This document shows, piece after piece, positions 24,036-33,426 of a DNA stretch of 64,000 nt. Source of the DNA: Planctomycetaceae bacterium (GTDB lineage Bacteria; Planctomycetota; Planctomycetia; Planctomycetales; Planctomycetaceae); NCBI GenBank assembly GCA_028284885.1, contig JANQQW010000022.1:1-64000 (forward strand). The letters are read 5' to 3'. Both the position numbers and the translations under genes were made by a program. The notes beneath the pieces were generated by a model, which was not told the origin of the DNA, made no database searches, and saw only the letters and a program-made list of their open reading frames with translations. Position 1 is the first letter of the stretch. Every line of letters begins with the position of its first letter.

Positions 24036-24860
24036 ATGCTTGATTCGGATTCGCAACTTGGGCAAAGTGGTGATGAAGGGAGTTCCGTAACGCCACCGGT
24101 GCGAACCATGCTGGTCGATGAACGACGCGAGCAGATTCGCGGAATAGCCGAGAAAATGGGTTTCGTCTCCCTGCAGGAGCTGGCAGACGAAGTTGGCGTC
24201 AGCGAGTCAACCGTCCGGAGAGATTTGGAGCATCTTGACGGAATCGGACAGATTCGCCGCACAAGAGGTGGGGCAGTCTACGTTGGAGAGGGGCTCCACG
24301 CATTCGAGGAACGGGTCTCGAAGGCCCTCAACGAGAAGCGACGGATCGCCCGAGCCGTCGCCGAACTCATCGAACCGGGCGAGGCCATCCTGCTCGACGG
24401 CGGCACCACGACACTCGAAGTCGCCCGGCAGCTTCACGGCAGACCACTCCACGTTGTGACCAACTCCCTGCCCATCGTGAACGCCCTCGCGACCGACCCG
24501 AACGTCGAGCTCGTGTTCGTCGGCGGGTACGTCTACCCGAACTCCGGGGTCGCGCTCGGGCCGCTCACGGTCGAGGCCCTCTCGCGAATCAACGCTCGCC
24601 GCCTCGTCATGGGTGTCGGCGGCATCACCGAACGGGGCCTCTACAACGGAAACACGCTGCTCGTCGAAACCGAACGGCAGATGATGGCAGCGGCCGAGGA
24701 GGTCATCGTCGTCGCGGACAGCAGCAAGTTCGACCACACCGCCCTCGCCCATCTCTGCACGCTGGACAAGGTCGATCGCTTCGTCGTCGACAAGGGCCTC
24801 TCGCCCGTCTGGCGGAACCGCATCGACCGGGCCGGTGCCGAACTGATCGTCGCGGACTAG
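24036..24860 (+). CDS. DeoR/GlpR-family transcriptional regulator of the BMC operon
   Basis: 274 residues. An alternative ATG at 24108 would trim a poorly conserved lead. The helix-turn-helix is [24 protein letters not shown] at about 48-71, followed by the sugar-phosphate-sensing domain with [15 protein letters not shown] and [12 protein letters not shown]. DeoR regulators usually bind a phosphorylated sugar and repress the operon they head. Only 31 bases separate it from the PduL gene, so it is probably co-transcribed and self-regulating. Fuculose- or rhamnulose-1-phosphate would be a logical inducer (inference). Confidence 0.88.
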
Positions 24861-24891: not shown

Positions 24892-25611
24892 GTGATCGAG
24901 ACCGCCAGCAAACTCAGCCGATCCGACGTCGAACGCATCGTGCGGTCGATCGTCGCCGAGCGTCTCGGCCAGTCCGCCCCCGCGGCGTCGGCCCCGGTCG
25001 CGGACGGCAAGCCGAACCCGCTCGTCGTCAACATCTCGGCCCGCCACGTGCACCTCTCCGAGGAGCACGTCGAGCAGCTCTTCGGGCCCGGCCACCAGCT
25101 CGAGCCGGTGAAGGACCTCTACCAGGACGGCTACTACGCCGCGAAGGAGACGGTTGCCGTCGTCGGACCGCGTCGCCGTATGCTGCCGGAGGTTCGCGTC
25201 CTCGGCCCCTGCCGTGGGGCCTCGCAGGTCGAACTCGCCTTCACCGACGGCATTTCGCTCGGCATCGACCTGCCGGTTCGGATCAGCGGCAACATCGAGG
25301 GGACGCCCGGGTGCCTGCTCGTCGGGCCGCACGGCAGCGTCGAACTCGAACAAGGCGTCATCCGCGCCATGCGGCACGTGCACATGGGCCCGGCCGACCT
25401 CGATTGGTACGGCGTGAAGGCGGGCGACTCCATGCACCTCCGCATCGAGTCGGCCGGCTGCACCACCGTCCTCGAGGACGTCGTCGTGCGGGCCGGCGAG
25501 AACATCAAGCTCGAGGTCCACCTCGACACCGACGAGGGGAACGCGATCCACCTCGACGGGGCGACGAACGTCGAACTGGTCAAACCCGAGCCGTGCAAGT
25601 GTCACGGCTGA
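24892..25611 (+). CDS. pduL: PduL-type phosphotransacylase, BMC lumen enzyme
   Basis: 239 residues from GTG. An amphipathic helix at about 9-26 ([16 protein letters not shown]) followed by a Pro/Ala linker is a typical encapsulation peptide. The PduL fold follows, with the zinc-site motifs [11 protein letters not shown] near 51 and [15 protein letters not shown] near 164. It exchanges acyl-CoA for acyl phosphate, here probably lactyl-CoA to lactyl-phosphate, recycling CoA inside the compartment for the aldehyde dehydrogenase. Ends in CKCHG. Confidence 0.93.
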
Positions 25612-25661: not shown

Positions 25662-25946
25662 ATGGCGAAGACGATGGAAGCACTCGGCATGATCGAGACG
25701 AAGGGCCTCGTGTCCCTCGTCGAAGCGTCCGACGCGATGCTCAAGGCGGCCAACGTGCAGATGGTCGGCTGGGAGAAGGTCGGCAGCGGACTCGTCACGG
25801 CGTTCGTCGTCGGTGACGTGGCGGCCGTGAAGGCGGCCGTCGACGCCGGCGCCTCCGCTGCCAGCAAGATCGGCGAGGTCGTCAGCGTGCAGGTCATTCC
25901 GCGGCCGCACGAGGAACTCTCGAGCGTCCTGCCGACGAAGGCCTGA
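25662..25946 (+). CDS. BMC-H hexameric shell protein
   Basis: 94 residues, a single canonical BMC domain: [21 protein letters not shown], then [24 protein letters not shown] and [12 protein letters not shown]. The loop that lines the hexamer pore reads KVGSG. It is followed after three bases by a second BMC-H gene, so the two are made together and may form mixed facets. Confidence 0.96.
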
Positions 25947-25949
25947 GTC

Positions 25950-26285
25950 ATGGCCAAGCGCGCCACGCGCCGCCGAACGGCGGCGAAACCCACCACCACG
26001 GAAGTAGAGAAACCGAAACCGATGAACGAAGCCATTGGACTCGTCGAGACGAAGGGGCTCATCGCCCAGATCGAGGCGAGCGACGCCATGCTGAAGGCCG
26101 CCAACGTCTCCCTGTCGAAGCAGGTGCAGATCGGCGGCGGATTCGTGACCACGATCATCAAGGGTGACGTCGGCAGCGTTCGCGCCGCCGTCGACGCCGG
26201 AGCAGCCGCCGCCTCCCAGGTCGGCGAGCTCGTCTCGGCCCACGTCATCCCCCGCCCCTCGAACGGGCTGATCGAGCAGTTTTGA
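25950..26285 (+). CDS. BMC-H hexameric shell protein with basic amino-terminal extension
   Basis: 111 residues. The BMC domain starts near residue 25 ([20 protein letters not shown]) and closely resembles the preceding shell protein, indicating tandem duplication. It has an extra ~24-residue lead rich in Lys, Arg and Thr ([11 protein letters not shown]). An inner ATG just before NEAIG could give a canonical-length protein, so both forms might be made. The pore loop reads QIGGG. Confidence 0.95.
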
Positions 26286-26402: not shown

Positions 26403-27593
26403 ATGAAGATCCTCGTGGCCAACCTCGGCTCGACGAGTTTCAAGTACCGAGTGATCGAGATGCCCGGCGAGCAACAGCTCGGACGGGGCGGGATCGATCG
26501 CATAGGCGACGAGACGAGTCACTGCTTCGTCGAGATCGGCGAGCACCGCGACGAGCGGAGCGAACACGTGGCCAACCACGCCGCGGCGGTCGGGATGTGT
26601 CTCGACCAGCTGACCGGCGAGGGGGGCTGCCTCGACTCCGTCGAAGAGGTCGCGGCGATCGCCTTCAAGACGGTCCACGCCGGCAACCTGTCCGGGGTGC
26701 GGATCGTCGACGAGGAACTGTTGGCGAAGATGGAGGAACTCGTGGACGTCGCCCCGGCGCACAACCCGCCCTACGTGCGGGCCATGCGGCAACTTCGCGA
26801 CGCCTACCCCGCGATTCCGCTCGTGGCGGCCCTCGAGACCGGCTTCCACGACACGATCCCCGACGCCAACCGCATCTACGCCGTGCCGCTGGAGTGGCGG
26901 GACGAACACGACGTGCAGCGGTGGGGCTTCCACGGAGCGAGCCATCGCTTCGTCTCGGGCCGCATCGCGGAGCTGCTCGGACGGAACGGACTGCGAGTCG
27001 TCACCTGCCACCTCGGCGGGAGCAGTTCGCTGTGCGCGTCGCTCGACGGACGGTCGCTCGCCACCACGATGGGCATGAGTCCGCAGGGAGGCGTGCCGCA
27101 GAACAACCGGGTCGGCGACTTCGACCCGTTCTGCCTGCCGTACCTGATGCGGCGGACCGGGAAGTCGCTGGACGAGTTGCTGTCCGAGATGTCCACCAAC
27201 GGCGGGCTGCTCGGCATCAGCGGTCTCAGCGGCGACCTGCGCGATCTCGAGGAGGCGACGGCGAACGGTCACGAGCGAGCCCGGCTCGCCCTCGACCACT
27301 TCGTCGGACAGATTCGCCACCACCTCGGCGGCTACATGGTGCTGCTAGGCGGCCTCGACGCGATCGTCTTCAGCGGTGGCATCGGCGAGAACTCGTCGGC
27401 CATCCGCAAGGCGGTCACCGCCGACCTGCAGTGGGCCGGCGTGCGGCTCGACGACGCCGTCAACGACGACACCCGCAGCACGGAGACGCGAGTCTCCACG
27501 CTCGACAGTGACGTCGAGGTGTGGGTCGTCCCGACGAACGAGGAGGTCGTGCTGGCGCGGCAGAGCGCGGACGCCCTGGGGAGGACGAACTGA
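26403..27593 (+). CDS. ackA: Acetate kinase family enzyme of the BMC operon
   Basis: 396 residues from the ATG at 26403. It shows the acetate kinase signatures: [10 protein letters not shown] at the start, [26 protein letters not shown] and [13 protein letters not shown]. It would turn acyl phosphate and ADP into the acid and ATP, here probably lactyl- or propionyl-phosphate as well as acetyl phosphate. The usual FDTAFH motif holding the catalytic Asp reads LETGFH, an Asp to Glu change. The stop shares a base with the next start (TGATG), coupling it to the pentamer gene. Confidence 0.92.
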
Positions 27594-27904
27594 TGTTTCT
27601 CGCGAAGGTCACCGGCTCCGTCGTCTCCACGCAGAAGGTCGACGAGATGGTCGGCCAGAAGCTCCTCGTCGTGGAGCCGCTCCGAGTCGACGAGAAGAAG
27701 CGGGACCGCCTGCAGGGAACCGGGCGGACGTTCATCGCCGTCGACACCGTGGGTGCCGGCGAGGGAGAGGTCGTGTTGATCGTGCAGGGCTCGAGTGCCC
27801 GCTTCACGCCCGACACGAAGACTCTGCCGATCGACTGTGCCATCGTCGGCATCGTCGACCGGGTCACGGTCGAATCGGACTCGATCTTCAACGCGAACGA
27901 CTGA
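27593..27904 (+). CDS. BMC-P pentameric shell protein (EutN/CcmL), first copy
   Basis: 103 residues. FLAKVTGSVVSTQKVDEMVG at the start and VDTVGAGEGEVVLIVQGSSA in the middle are hallmark EutN/CcmL features; the end PIDCAIVGIVD is the usual last strand. Such pentamers cap the vertices of the compartment. The start ATG overlaps the kinase stop, and the frame could be extended upstream only through the kinase gene. Confidence 0.95.
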   Translation: MFLAKVTGSVVSTQKVDEMVGQKLLVVEPLRVDEKKRDRLQGTGRTFIAVDTVGAGEGEVVLIVQGSSARFTPDTKTLPIDCAIVGIVDRVTVESDSIFNAND

Positions 27905-27914
27905 AGGAGTCGCC

Positions 27915-28394
27915 ATGCCGTCGGACCAGAAGCCGTCCGTCCTCACCTGTCAGATCATCGTCGCGGCGTTGATCGCGGGAGTCGTCACGTTCAGCGGGTT
28001 CGCCCTGTTCGCGGGACTCGGCGACGGAGCCGAGCAGGACGGGCAGCCGTCGCTCTCGTTCGTGATGGTGGCCGTGGCCGTCGTGACGGTTCTTGCCCGA
28101 TTCGTCGTCCCGCCCGTCCTGGTCGCGTCTCAGCGGAGGAACGCGTTGGACGGCAACGAGGAGATCGAGCGAGAGAACTTCCTCGGTCTGTTCGTCACGA
28201 AGACGATCGTCGAGAACGCCCTGCCCGAAGGGGCCTGCTTCATGTGCATCGTCGCGTACGTCGTCGAGGGGCAGTGGTGGCTGTTCGCGGTCGTCGGGGC
28301 GGTGGTCGCCCTGATGGCGATCGGCTTCCCGACCCAGGGCAAGTTCGAGAACTGGTACCGCACTCAACGTGAACTCGCCGACCTGAGCCGCTGA
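27915..28394 (+). CDS. Small polytopic membrane protein inside the BMC operon
   Basis: 159 residues with about four hydrophobic segments at roughly 12-34, 48-70, 105-119 and 122-141, and a charged loop (NEEIERENF) before the third. No transporter or enzyme signature recognised. A good ribosome site (AAGGAG) lies just upstream, and the gene is tightly packed between a shell protein and the aldehyde dehydrogenase, so co-expression is likely. It could act in substrate entry, product export or anchoring; all of these are guesses. Confidence 0.75.
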   Translation: MPSDQKPSVLTCQIIVAALIAGVVTFSGFALFAGLGDGAEQDGQPSLSFVMVAVAVVTVLARFVVPPVLVASQRRNALDGNEEIERENFLGLFVTKTIVENALPEGACFMCIVAYVVEGQWWLFAVVGAVVALMAIGFPTQGKFENWYRTQRELADLSR

Positions 28395-28439: not shown

Positions 28440-29867
28440 ATGCAAGCAACCGAAGCCGCCATTCGCAGCGTCGTCCAGGAGGTGCTGGCGCAGCTCAACA
28501 CGTCGAACGGAGCCCGCAAGAACGGCTCGGCCGTCCGCACGGGCGACTGGGGCGTGCACGACTGCGTCGACCAGGCCGTCGACGCGGCGACCGACGGGTT
28601 CCACGCCCTCGGCCGGGCCAGCATGGACACGAGACGACAGATCGTCGAGATCGTGAAGTCGATGTGCGAGCAGCGGGCCACGGAGTGGGGCAAGGCCGAG
28701 CTGGGCGAGACCCGCATCGGCCGGCTCGACCACAAGATCGGCAAGCTCGAGGCGATTCGGCAGGTGCCGGGCGTCGAGTTCCTCCGCACGGACGCCGTCA
28801 GCGGCGACAACGGGCTGACCGTCACGGAGTACGCCCCGTTCGGCGTCGTCGGGGCGATCACGCCGGTCACGCACTCGCTGCCCACGGTGGCCGGCAACGT
28901 GGTCAACATGATCGCGGCCGGGAACACCGTCCTCTTCAACCCGCACCCGTCCGGGGCCCGCATTGCCTGCGAGGGGGTGAAGGAGTTCAACAAGGCGATC
29001 CACGCTGCGACCGGGCTCGAGAACCTGATCAACATCGTCCGCGATCCGACGCTCGAGTCGGCCGAGGCGATCTTCAACCACCGCGGCATCCCGCTGCTGT
29101 GCGTCACCGGCGGCCCCGGCGTCGCGAGGGCGGCCCTCTCGGCGAAGAAGCGGGCCATCGTCGCCGGCCCCGGCAACCCGCCGGTCGTCGTCGACGGGTC
29201 GGCCGACCTCGACGTCGCCGCGAAGGGGATCGTCGACGGCGGGGCGTTCGACAACAACCTGCTCTGCATTGGCGAGAAGGAGGTCTTCGCCGTCGAGTCG
29301 ATCTTCGACGACCTGCTGTCCGCGATGGGCCGGCACGGCGGCTTCCAGCTGAACGCGCAGCAGACCGACAAGCTGACGTCGCTCGCCTTCAGCCCGCCGA
29401 AGGAGCCGGGCGGCCACGCCGTCCTCAACCGCGACCTCATCGGCAAGGACGCAACCGTGCTCGCCGACATGATCGGCGTCGCCGTCCCCGAGAACACACA
29501 GCTCCTCTTCGGCGAGACCGACACGAACAACCCGTTCGTGCCCGAGGAACAGATGATGCCCTTCGTCCCGTTCGTCCGTGCCCGCAACGCAAGCGACGCG
29601 ATCGAGATGGCGAAGCACTTCGAGCACGACTTCCGGCACACGGCCATCATCCACTCGCGGAACGTCCGCCACATGACGGAGATGGGCCGTTACCTGAACA
29701 CGACGCTGTTCATCAAGAACGGCCCCTGCATGGCCGGCCTCGGCCTCGGCGGCGAGGGTTTCCTCAGCTTCTCCATCGCCACCCCGACCGGCGAGGGAGT
29801 GACGAGCCCGCTGACGTTCACGCGGCAACGACGCTGCACCATGGTCGACGACCTTCGCATTGTGTGA
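28440..29867 (+). CDS. CoA-acylating aldehyde dehydrogenase (PduP/EutE type)
   Basis: 475 residues. An amphipathic amino-terminal helix ([16 protein letters not shown]) plus linker is an encapsulation peptide. The body is of the CoA-dependent aldehyde dehydrogenase family: catalytic Cys276 in [13 protein letters not shown], nucleotide-binding [16 protein letters not shown] and late LGLGGEGF. It would oxidise lactaldehyde to lactyl-CoA with NAD+ inside the shell. Its end lies next to a spacer with heptamer repeats; the first repeat unit overlaps the stop codon. Confidence 0.95.
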
Positions 29868-30006: not shown

Positions 30007-30264
30007 ATGCAACTCGGCGAAGTCCTCGGCCAGGCGACGGCGACGATGAAGCACGGGGCGCTCGACCGCTGGCGTCTGCTCGTCGTGCAGCCGCTCGGGA
30101 TTCGCGGGCAGGACGACGGAACGCCGCAACTCGTCATCGACGAGCTCGGGGCGGGACGCGGGGACAAGGTGATCATCAGCAGCGACGGGAAAGCCGTCCG
30201 AGAGATGACGGGACGAAACGACGCCCCGGTCCGCTGGGCCGTCATGGGAATCGTGGACGAGTAG
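30007..30264 (+). CDS. BMC-P pentameric shell protein (EutN/CcmL), second copy
   Basis: 85 residues from the ATG at 30007; an upstream extension of the frame through the repeat spacer is not protein-like. It shows QLGEVLGQATATMKH at the start, LVIDELGAGRGDKVIISSDGKA in the middle and AVMGIVDE at the end, a minimal EutN/CcmL domain. Three different pentamer genes are typical of the planctomycete-type BMC. Confidence 0.94.
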   Translation: MQLGEVLGQATATMKHGALDRWRLLVVQPLGIRGQDDGTPQLVIDELGAGRGDKVIISSDGKAVREMTGRNDAPVRWAVMGIVDE

Positions 30265-30377: not shown

Positions 30378-31025
30378 ATGACCGACTTCGACGCACAATT
30401 CGTGGAACGCATCGTCCGGGACGTGATGTCACGTCTCGCCGGCGACGTCCCCGTTGCGTCGTACGACTCGTCCGCGGCCCTCGTCGTCGACGACGCGGTC
30501 CTCACCGAGGAGTCGCTGGTGTCGCGGCTGAACGGTCACGGCAGCATCGTCGTCGGCCCGAAGACGGTCATCACGCCGACGGCCCGCGACGTCTTGCGGA
30601 AGCGAAACGTCGCCGTCAGCCGAGGCGTTGCGGCAACGAGCGGTCCCGCGAGCGGCGAGCGTCGGGTGATCGACGTCACGGACTCGGCGACCGTGGCCGC
30701 GGTCGTTCAGGCCGTCGGTCTCTCACGCGAAGCCGAGTCGTGCTGGAAGGTCGCGGCCGACGATGCCGTTGCGTTCGTACGTACCGCCGGGGCCGGAGTC
30801 GTCGTCTTCACGAACCGTGCGGCCGCGGTGACCTGCCGGGCAAATCGACAGGCTCATGTTCGCGCCGCCGTCGCGACGGATGGAGACGAGCTTCGCCAAC
30901 AGCAGAAGTCGCTCGGACCGAACGTTCTCGCAGTCGATCCGGTCGGCCAGTCGTTCGTCACGCTGCGGGCGATCCTGAAGACGTTCGCCACACCGATCGT
31001 CGTCCCCGACGGATGGGAGGACTGA
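30378..31025 (+). CDS. BMC-associated protein with RpiB-like carboxyl half
   Basis: 215 residues. The start FVERIVRDVMSRLAGDV looks like an encapsulation helix, and the middle has SIVVGPKTVITPTARDVLRK, a motif seen in several BMC-associated proteins. The second half resembles sugar-phosphate isomerases of the RpiB/LacAB family: ANRQAHVRAAVATD followed by NVLAVDP aligns by eye with the NKVPGIRAA and HNNANVL motifs of RpiB. Some catalytic residues of RpiB seem absent. It may be an enzyme core protein or a degenerate isomerase. It sits between two pentamer genes. Confidence 0.6.
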   Translation: MTDFDAQFVERIVRDVMSRLAGDVPVASYDSSAALVVDDAVLTEESLVSRLNGHGSIVVGPKTVITPTARDVLRKRNVAVSRGVAATSGPASGERRVIDVTDSATVAAVVQAVGLSREAESCWKVAADDAVAFVRTAGAGVVVFTNRAAAVTCRANRQAHVRAAVATDGDELRQQQKSLGPNVLAVDPVGQSFVTLRAILKTFATPIVVPDGWED

Positions 31026-31028
31026 GGC

Positions 31029-31355
31029 ATGCGGATCGGCGAGATCATCGGCAAGGTCACGCTCTCGCGGTGGCATCCTTCGTTGAGTGGAGCCACTTGG
31101 CGGATCGCCGTGCCGCTCTCGCGGGCGGGACTCTCGGGCGACCCGTCCGGCCGAGGCGAACCGTTCGTCGTCTACGACGAACTCGGACCGGGCGACGGTT
31201 CGCTCGTCGGCATCACGGAAGGAGCCGAGGCGGCCGCCCCCTTCAACCCGGACACCAAACCGATCGACGGCTACGTCGCCGCGATCCTCGATGCGATCGA
31301 CATCGGACAGACGAAACCACCCGTAACCCGACAACGAAACCTGTTTGGCGAGTGA
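31029..31355 (+). CDS. BMC-P pentameric shell protein (EutN/CcmL), third copy
   Basis: 108 residues, three bases after the preceding stop. RIGEIIGKVTLSRWHPSL at the start, VVYDELGPGDGSLVGITEGAEA in the middle and GYVAAILDAIDI late identify the EutN/CcmL fold. It has a ~15-residue tail (TKPPVTRQRNLFGE) lacking in the second copy. Confidence 0.93.
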   Translation: MRIGEIIGKVTLSRWHPSLSGATWRIAVPLSRAGLSGDPSGRGEPFVVYDELGPGDGSLVGITEGAEAAAPFNPDTKPIDGYVAAILDAIDIGQTKPPVTRQRNLFGE

Positions 31356-32502: not shown

Positions 32503-33426
32503 ATGAAAGTCTCCATCATCGGTGCCGGCGGGCTCGTCGGTTCGTGTGCGGCCTCAGCCCTGCAGTTCGGCGGAATCGTCCGCGAGATCGCCCTCGTCGA
32601 CGTCAACCAGGACGTGGCCGAGGGGCAGGCCCTCGACCTGTTGCACGGGGCGTCGCTCACGAGCGACCAGCGAATCTACGCGGCCGGCCCGGAGGACAAC
32701 GCGGACGCCGACGTGATCTGCATCACGGCCGGGCTGCGTCGCAAGCCGGACGAGAGCCGGCTCGACCTCATCAACCGGAACGTCGAGCTGTTCCAGAAGA
32801 TCCTCGCCGGGCTGAAGTCGTCGGGGACGAAGAAGGACGCGATCGTGTTCGTCGTCTCGAACCCGGTCGACGTGCTGACGTACCTCGCCGTGAAGGAACT
32901 CGGCCTGCCGCCCGCCCAGGTCATCGGGCTGGGCACGGTGCTCGACACGACGCGTCTCCGCAGCATGCTCGCCCAGCGGCTGGGAACGCCGCCGTCGCAG
33001 ACGAACGTGATCATCCTCGGCGAGCACGGCGACAGCATGGTCCCCGTCTGGTCGGCCGCGCAGGTGGGCAACCTGCCGCTGGAGAAGTGGCCCGGCGTCA
33101 CGCCCGGCCTGATCGCCGAGGTCGAGAAGAAGACCCGCGGCAGCGGCGCGGAGGTCATCAAGAAGAAGGGGGGAGCCGGCTTCGCCGTGGGCGTCTCGAT
33201 CGCCGACGTGATCCACTCCATCGCCCTCGACCAGCACCGCATCCTGCCGGTCTCGTCGCTGCAGAACGGAGCGTACGGCCTGCGAGACGTCTGCATCAGC
33301 GTGCCGACGATCCTCGGTCGGACCGGCGTCGTCGAGCAGGTCGAGATCGACCTGTGGCCGAAGGAGAAGACCGGCCTGCAGAACAGCGGCCGCGTGCTGC
33401 AGGAGACGATCGCGAAGGTCCTGTGA
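32503..33426 (+). CDS. Lactate/malate dehydrogenase-family enzyme of the BMC operon
   Basis: 307 residues. It has the dinucleotide loop IGAGGLVGS, the catalytic-loop region AGLRRKPDESRLDLINRN, LGTVLDTTRLR and the catalytic His in GEHGDSM. At the residue that separates lactate (Gln) from malate (Arg) dehydrogenases the protein has Arg in LRRKP, but the following Glu is lactate-dehydrogenase-like, so substrate choice is uncertain. In this operon it could recycle NAD+ by reducing a 2-oxo or aldehyde product. The last helix (GRVLQETIAKVL) may be a targeting peptide. Confidence 0.9.
   Translation: MKVSIIGAGGLVGSCAASALQFGGIVREIALVDVNQDVAEGQALDLLHGASLTSDQRIYAAGPEDNADADVICITAGLRRKPDESRLDLINRNVELFQKILAGLKSSGTKKDAIVFVVSNPVDVLTYLAVKELGLPPAQVIGLGTVLDTTRLRSMLAQRLGTPPSQTNVIILGEHGDSMVPVWSAAQVGNLPLEKWPGVTPGLIAEVEKKTRGSGAEVIKKKGGAGFAVGVSIADVIHSIALDQHRILPVSSLQNGAYGLRDVCISVPTILGRTGVVEQVEIDLWPKEKTGLQNSGRVLQETIAKVL

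Follow-up and report, generated by a model that had tools for sequence, protein, structure and literature searches.

A predicted pseudo-isomerase with an RpiB fold is a candidate shell-cargo adaptor of PVM-type microcompartments

The gene and its locus

The window, by which we mean the whole stretch of 64,000 nucleotides of planctomycetal DNA that was analyzed, carries a bacterial microcompartment (BMC) operon in which a protein of 215 amino acids is encoded between two BMC-P genes. The genes of the locus, and the parts of this protein, are as follows.

24111..24860, + strand: DeoR-family regulator (2.1e-48)
24892..25611, + strand: PduL phosphotransacylase with an N-terminal encapsulation helix (PTAC, 6.9e-70)
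25662..25946, + strand: BMC-H (PF00936 match at 25680-25907)
25950..26285, + strand: BMC-H (PF00936 match at 26031-26258)
26403..27593, + strand: acetate/propionate kinase (9e-100)
27593..27904, + strand: BMC-P, third copy (as a query, it matches BMC-P genes across loci)
28440..29867, + strand: CoA-acylating aldehyde dehydrogenase (AldDH) with an N-terminal encapsulation helix (NF011927, 7.3e-180)
30007..30264, + strand: BMC-P (EutN_CcmL, Pfam 3.6e-24), upstream neighbor
30378..31025, + strand: gene of the candidate pseudo-isomerase adaptor, 215 aa, an ATG to TGA open reading frame and the subject of this study
30393..30440, + strand: N-terminal encapsulation-type amphipathic helix, residues 6-21, core FVERIVRDVMSRL (AlphaFold2 helix; PSSM score 9.8; pattern as in the PduL, AldDH, and aldolase helices)
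30441..30479, + strand: flexible linker, residues 22-34 (pLDDT below 50 at residues 25-30)
30480..30623, + strand: TPxARD module, residues 35-82, beta-alpha-beta-alpha-beta in the model (genome-scan match at 30483-30626; related to the PduM C-terminus, EutQ 3-48, EutT 3-46, and TIGR02536)
30648..31022, + strand: RpiB-fold domain, residues 91-215, catalytic residues lost (profile and structure searches, residue counts)
30834..30872, + strand: conserved CRANRQAHVRAAV motif, with C153, N156, R157, and A163 nearly invariant (family alignment)
30921..30941, + strand: conserved NVLAVDP motif, including N182 (family alignment)
31029..31355, + strand: BMC-P (EutN_CcmL, Pfam 1.3e-16), downstream neighbor, starting 3 bases past the stop codon
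31454..32362, + strand: class II aldolase with a C-terminal encapsulation helix (Aldolase_II, 1.3e-49)
32503..33426, + strand: lactate/malate dehydrogenase (1.7e-37 and 1.2e-33)

With three BMC-P genes, two BMC-H genes, and all other members present, the PVM-type gene set is complete at this locus. The same set is given, in the relevant section of PMC4207490, for the PVM organelles of L-fucose and L-rhamnose degradation. The BMC operon setting named in a preliminary description of the gene is thus borne out, with BMC-P genes on both sides. No BMC-T gene of the EutL/PduB type was found within the window. The operon also encodes a probable membrane protein of 161 aa (27909-28391, +), which is unusual for such a locus and has a weak match to CitMHS (8.5e-5, under the cut-off).

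An RpiB fold that has lost its active site

AlphaFold2, run with 41 aligned sequences, gave a model (pLDDT 89.1) consisting of a helix, a linker, the module (35-82), and an alpha/beta domain (91-215). Foldseek returned 16 PDB matches at E ≤ 0.001, 14 of them annotated as RpiB and the other two being the ketol-isomerase 4u8f. In VIA-align, the top 23 rows were of RpiB/LacAB type (Z 15.4-12.5 over 111-129 residues; next row 8.9). The window protein alone matches Pfam LacAB_rpiB (PF02502) at E 0.041 and 14.3 bits, under the gathering cut-off of 24.7, and a phmmer search of the PDB with this single protein gave no match. The same Pfam family is matched by 19 of 41 homologues (best 1.3e-4), and the 16 best PDB matches of the family profile are all RpiB/LacB chains (best 4.4e-5). 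The preliminary description had noted an RpiB/LacAB resemblance in the carboxyl half on the strength of two motifs. Both are present, CRANRQAHVRAAV from C153 and NVLAVDP from N182, and the resemblance is confirmed by the homologues' Pfam matches, the PDB profile search, and a predicted fold that is that of RpiB and not an unrelated one. Judged from sequences and a predicted structure, the resemblance is beyond chance.

We followed D9, H10, the C66 loop, H99, N100, and the tail Arg/His residues, which we take to be catalytic, with roles and numbering from E. coli RpiB. The counts come from 15 canonical RpiB, 35 BMC-linked RpiB, and 41 PVM proteins aligned together. D9, H10, H99, and N100 are kept in 15/15 canonical and 35/35 BMC RpiB, the D9/H10-type counts in the canonical set being partly circular, as 15 of 18 fetched loci passed a motif filter (L164 and L171, RpiB-like with “VEHDDMN”, and L166 were dropped). 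The BMC set comprises all full-length module-RpiB frames fetched, 32 taken by motif filter and three by hand. Position 66 is Cys in 13/15 canonical RpiB and Asp in 35/35 BMC RpiB, a replacement that may mean different chemistry.

The PVM set consists of the window protein and 40 others, with start codons chosen by hand; four loci (L001, L032, L038, and L044) were excluded, being the window itself, close relatives of rows already present, or the same gene. Among these 41 proteins, D9 and N100 are never kept, H10 and H99 are kept once each (in L003 and L006, respectively), and C66 twice, with at most one of D9, H10, C66, and H99 in any protein. The C-terminal Arg/His tail is mostly gone (R133 6/41, H134 0/41, R137 2/41). 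None of the eight catalytic positions checked is kept in the window protein. Positions of the fold persist (N77 in 39/41, Arg at K78 in 40/41, N103 in 40/41), and Cys153 is nearly invariant at a place where RpiB has no Cys. The earlier remark that RpiB catalytic residues are not evident is therefore confirmed, now as a loss counted across 41 homologues.

Seven pairs were tried for selection, of which two were saturated; omega was 0.11-0.20 in the five measurable pairs, and 0.06-0.17 in the C-terminal half. Such purifying selection argues against decay, and the protein looks like a working pseudoenzyme rather than a relic. As far as its sequence can tell, it is a pseudo-isomerase from which the RpiB active site is gone.

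An encapsulation-type helix

The helix at residues 6-21 of the AlphaFold2 model was scored with a PSSM trained solely on PduL, AldDH, and aldolase helices, whose 13-mers were aligned in register by hydrophobic pattern; the PSSM favors helices of that type. Thirty of 41 PVM N-termini score above 99% of shuffles, against 2/41 for an internal control stretch. At the window locus, FVERIVRDVMSRL scores 9.8, compared with -2.9 to 2.2 for seven other N-termini. Its hydrophobic moment of 0.71 is reached by 1.6% of shuffles. With an HMM built from these helices the signal was weak: 8/41 matched at i-E < 0.1, the window protein not being among them. The BMC targeting-type helix proposed in the preliminary description thus stands on the model and the PSSM, with a weak HMM. 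Among BMC RpiB, 6/35 N-termini pass the PSSM; these were scored on open frames whose start codons had not been set, so the score does not establish a helix in this group.

A module shared by microcompartment families

The VVGPKTVITPTARD block, which the preliminary description had pointed out, is the core of a separate conserved module of about 48 residues. We compared 47 of 76 module peptides, hand-picked for variety, with 18,950 NCBIfam families at E ≤ 0.1. TIGR02536 was matched by 31/47 peptides (best 3.9e-8), PduM by 21/47 and 16/47 (two models), EutQ by 15/47 (best 9.5e-5), and EutT by 3/47 (best 0.016). All four are BMC families, and no other NCBIfam family was matched by more than one of the 47 peptides at this threshold. 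A module profile that contains none of the E. coli K-12 eut-region proteins was also searched against 16 of them, and only EutT (3-46, 1.5e-9) and EutQ (3-48, 4.1e-7) fell within the inclusion threshold. The EutQ model PRK15457 was matched by 6/41 family members (best 6.7e-4), with no match for the window protein itself.

A scan of 119 genomes of the window's phylum gave 53 module matches in 36 genomes at E ≤ 1e-4; at this threshold, the genome of the window protein gave no other module match. BMC-H (PF00936) is present in all 36, and the module occurs in 0/74 genomes without a BMC-H match. Nine of the 45 BMC-H-positive genomes have no module match, and one of the nine, G069, has just a 7.6e-4 BMC-H match. 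By a tally of gene maps and the window, 42/53 matches have a BMC-P or BMC-H gene no more than 6 kb away. The remaining 11 comprise four module-RpiB, two PVM pseudo-RpiB of genus g40, three TIM-domain frames, one class III aminotransferase, and one protein with a module and an ACT-like C-terminus, which is on a 5.9 kb contig.

Modeled alone, the module reached pLDDT 90.9. This model had no Foldseek match at E ≤ 0.001, and its best VIA rows were Cas1 domains with Z 6.0 over 50 residues, under the guide value of 8; thus, we claim no fold relative for the module. A PDB sequence search gave four matches (best E 0.21), none usable. A link to PSBD was considered, with Pfam E3_binding found in 9/47 module peptides (best 3.9e-4), and was rejected; Foldseek and VIA gave it no support.

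The module also occurs in other contexts. It is fused to an ACT domain in L096:6118-6786 (-) and L136:6538-7110 (+), the two scanned, both with Pfam ACT_6; similar ACT-type C-termini are present in L097, L098 (326 aa frame), and L099. These module-ACT proteins are mostly beside BMC-P or BMC-H genes. Small proteins whose genes adjoin BMC-H genes combine the module with a Cys/Gly-rich stretch and a VRDG tail (L098:6340-6732 (-) and L100:6092-6517 (+)), the L100 protein matching no Pfam family. In L133:5578-7230 (+), L141:183-2096 (-), and L147:4193-5842 (+), the module stands directly ahead of a triosephosphate isomerase domain. Encoded at a distance from shell genes, these proteins are possibly satellite microcompartment enzymes. 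A class III aminotransferase, L139:6149-7696 (-), carries the module C-terminally and has no shell gene in the fetched stretch.

Relatives and probable origin

A profile search of 288 genomes of the phylum found PVM orthologues in 22 genomes (E ≤ 1.4e-39; next best 7.9e-16). The other matches were partial ones to ordinary RpiB, module-only ones, and full-length distant relatives, in which the same module precedes a catalytically intact RpiB domain. The gene order in most of these full-length relatives is BMC-P / module-RpiB / BMC-P / BMC-P. This order resembles the “BMC-P triplet” that the pertinent passages of PMC8217296 report for FRAG, HO, ACI, and other types, and call unexpected. Loci with multiple BMC-P genes and an RpiB gene are L090, L092-L095, L102-L108, L112, L113, L116-L122, L126-L128, L130, and L132. 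Nine of the 35 BMC RpiB have no shell gene in the fetched stretch (L089, L091, L109-L111, L114, L115, L145, and L146). A scan of a contig collection with the single window protein found no relative; with profile A2, the scan found 14 loci, all Planctomycetota by title.

A phylogenetic tree unites the PVM proteins in a single clade (100/99) and canonical RpiB in a single group (90/90); BMC RpiB fall between the two. The stem branch through which the PVM clade joins is long (3.47), and the program cautions about joins of this kind; the tree therefore supports, without proving, PVM descent from BMC RpiB. Taken together, the tree, the shared architecture, and the shared slot indicate a microcompartment RpiB as the probable ancestor of the PVM protein.

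A stand-alone PduL frame 225-301 aa long occurs in 23 genomes, and 22 of these encode the full protein. The count leaves out G057, with its shorter PTAC frame (195 aa), and takes frames of at least 450 aa as another gene type. The 23rd genome, G306, has a full PVM locus, from DeoR to LDH, in which a reduced gene (L101:7161-7517, -) lies between BMC-P genes. It encodes only the helix, linker, and module (about 118 aa); the RpiB domain is absent, and the stop codon overlaps the start of the BMC-P gene that follows, leaving no room for such a domain. This one draft genome supports, without proving, the view that helix and module are the part that counts. In genus g40, the pseudo-isomerase is encoded away from the BMC operon (G125:C7:114252-114938 and G143:C1:727124-727807), with no shell gene in the fetched 16 kb.

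Proposed role and alternatives

The window protein has both kinds of part, a module related to the stretch of EutQ published as shell-interacting and an encapsulation-type helix like that described for PduM. On this ground we favor, with moderate confidence, the reading that the catalytically dead isomerase is a shell-cargo adaptor of the PVM microcompartment, a counterpart of EutQ and PduM. Of the two functions offered in the preliminary description, the better fit is a lumen scaffold recruiting the other enzymes. By sequence and model, the parts of the protein are the encapsulation-type helix, the flexible linker, the TPxARD module, and the RpiB-fold domain without an active site. Going by homologous parts, the helix would join the PduL, AldDH, and aldolase helices in the enzyme core. 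The module would dock on the inner shell as EutQ residues 9-41 do, a role transferred from EutQ over an alignment of about 45 residues with modest E-values. The dead RpiB domain would act as a folded, probably oligomeric spacer, dispensable as in G306. The adaptor would have arisen from an active module-RpiB encoded between BMC-P genes, with its activity lost and its position and architecture kept. Since no BMC-T gene was found in the window, docking must take place on a surface other than the EutM/EutL interface, and would use BMC-H or BMC-P if it is EutQ-like. Counting against an adaptor, besides, are the g40 genes away from a BMC locus, the BMC-H-positive genomes (9/45) without a module match, and an order of parts that differs from that of EutQ.

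Catalytically intact RpiB and TIM-domain proteins carry the module as well, so that, taken by itself, it could serve as a second tag for targeting. It may thus be a general docking tag rather than a mark of linkers only. A wider proposal, which we make tentatively and with slightly more doubt than belief, is that TPxARD is a general shell-docking domain across BMC types, for which the open-access literature gave no name, and that the PVM isomerase was stripped of catalysis and kept as a dedicated adaptor. The same proposal would unite EutQ, PduM, EutT, TIGR02536, BMC RpiB, and the ACT- and TIM-domain proteins.

The position of the gene lends itself to another explanation, in which the protein serves BMC-P pentamers, in folding, paralogue choice, or vertex placement, and does not link facets to cargo. 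Wherever the gene keeps its place in the PVM loci that were fetched (the window, L101, L150, L152, and L154-L157), it lies between two BMC-P genes, one of which the reduced G306 gene overlaps; the RpiB relatives have the arrangement described above, and the presence of three BMC-P paralogues is what PMC8217296, in the passages concerned, calls unexpected. We nevertheless regard this as unlikely: operon neighbors need not bind, module-ACT and small module proteins adjoin BMC-H genes, and the EutQ contacts given in the relevant published passages are EutM and EutL, not a pentamer. A little less likely again is an encapsulated sensor or regulatory subunit, whose dead RpiB domain would bind a phosphorylated metabolite and tune the aldolase or the shell. 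Purifying selection on the RpiB domain and the near-invariance of C153, N156, R157, and N182 would suit a sensor, but the Arg/His tail that is mostly gone from the 41 proteins, and the existence of G306 without the domain, would not.

RpiB ancestry, and a nearly invariant Cys153 where RpiB has none, are in keeping with an active enzyme of new chemistry, such as the sugar-phosphate enzyme acting before the aldolase that was the other function offered in the preliminary description. We consider that suggestion improbable and unsupported, because D9 and N100 are lost in 41/41 proteins, H10 and H99 in 40/41 each, and Cys66 in 39/41, and because G306 has no RpiB domain at all. The high divergence and the long stem branch might also be those of a functionless, decaying relic of BMC RpiB. 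This is scarcely credible, as purifying selection contradicts decay and the gene is kept in 22/23 PVM genomes.

Significance

The way in which cores are tethered to shells is understood in Eut (EutQ), in carboxysomes, and in part in Pdu (PduM and PduB); in the open-access literature, we found no account of it for PVM and many other microcompartments. That literature yielded no paper describing this PVM protein, which the original PVM paper (reportedly Erbilgin and others, 2014) may describe. Nor did we find an open-access report that joins PduM, EutQ, and EutT by a shared module. Through the module, PduM acquires relatives and is connected with the stretch of EutQ described as shell-interacting. 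It also suggests a testable rule, that module-bearing proteins dock on shells. The PVM protein would represent the conversion of an enzyme to a scaffold, with intact relatives still present in a similar genomic slot. In addition, the module is a possible docking tag for engineering, and could flag satellite proteins encoded far from BMC loci.

Comparison with known systems

The sections of PMC12487888 that deal with Salmonella EutQ describe H1/H2 (9-41) as interacting with the shell and H3/H4 (62-99) as interacting with cargo helices, and report that shell and cargo come apart when either of the two is lost. Removal of EutQ 1-100 apparently abolished EutM binding, according to the relevant part of PMC4827028. 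The module falls on E. coli EutQ 3-48, overlapping the published shell-interacting stretch. However, EutQ has a cupin domain, whereas the PVM protein has a dead RpiB domain after the module; no cupin match was found in the window protein with Pfam at E ≤ 1. Furthermore, the cargo-binding helices follow the module in EutQ, while the encapsulation helix precedes it in the PVM protein.

PduM is described in part of PMC12108088 as having an encapsulation helix at its N-terminus and in part of PMC9132943 as localizing to the core, its loss partly separating core and shell. Both PduM and the PVM protein thus combine an N-terminal encapsulation helix with the module, although the module is C-terminal in PduM (model positions 112-152 of 153) and central in the PVM protein. 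PduM was compared through NCBIfam/Pfam models alone, with scores under whole-protein cut-offs; the window protein scores 17.8 bits against TIGR04493, where the cut-off is 50. To our knowledge, PduM has no RpiB domain.

Dead enzyme domains have been suggested as BMC scaffolds in passages of PMC4207490 (the second AldDH of GRM1 and carboxysome cases). These resemble the PVM protein in suggested role, and derive from enzymes other than RpiB. As EutQ is also a known linker, the kind of protein proposed here is already known. The RpiB of SPU/FRAG-like BMC loci (pfam02502) share with the PVM protein the module, the RpiB domain, and a gene mostly placed between BMC-P genes; they differ in that their active-site residues are intact (35/35), whereas those of the PVM protein are lost.
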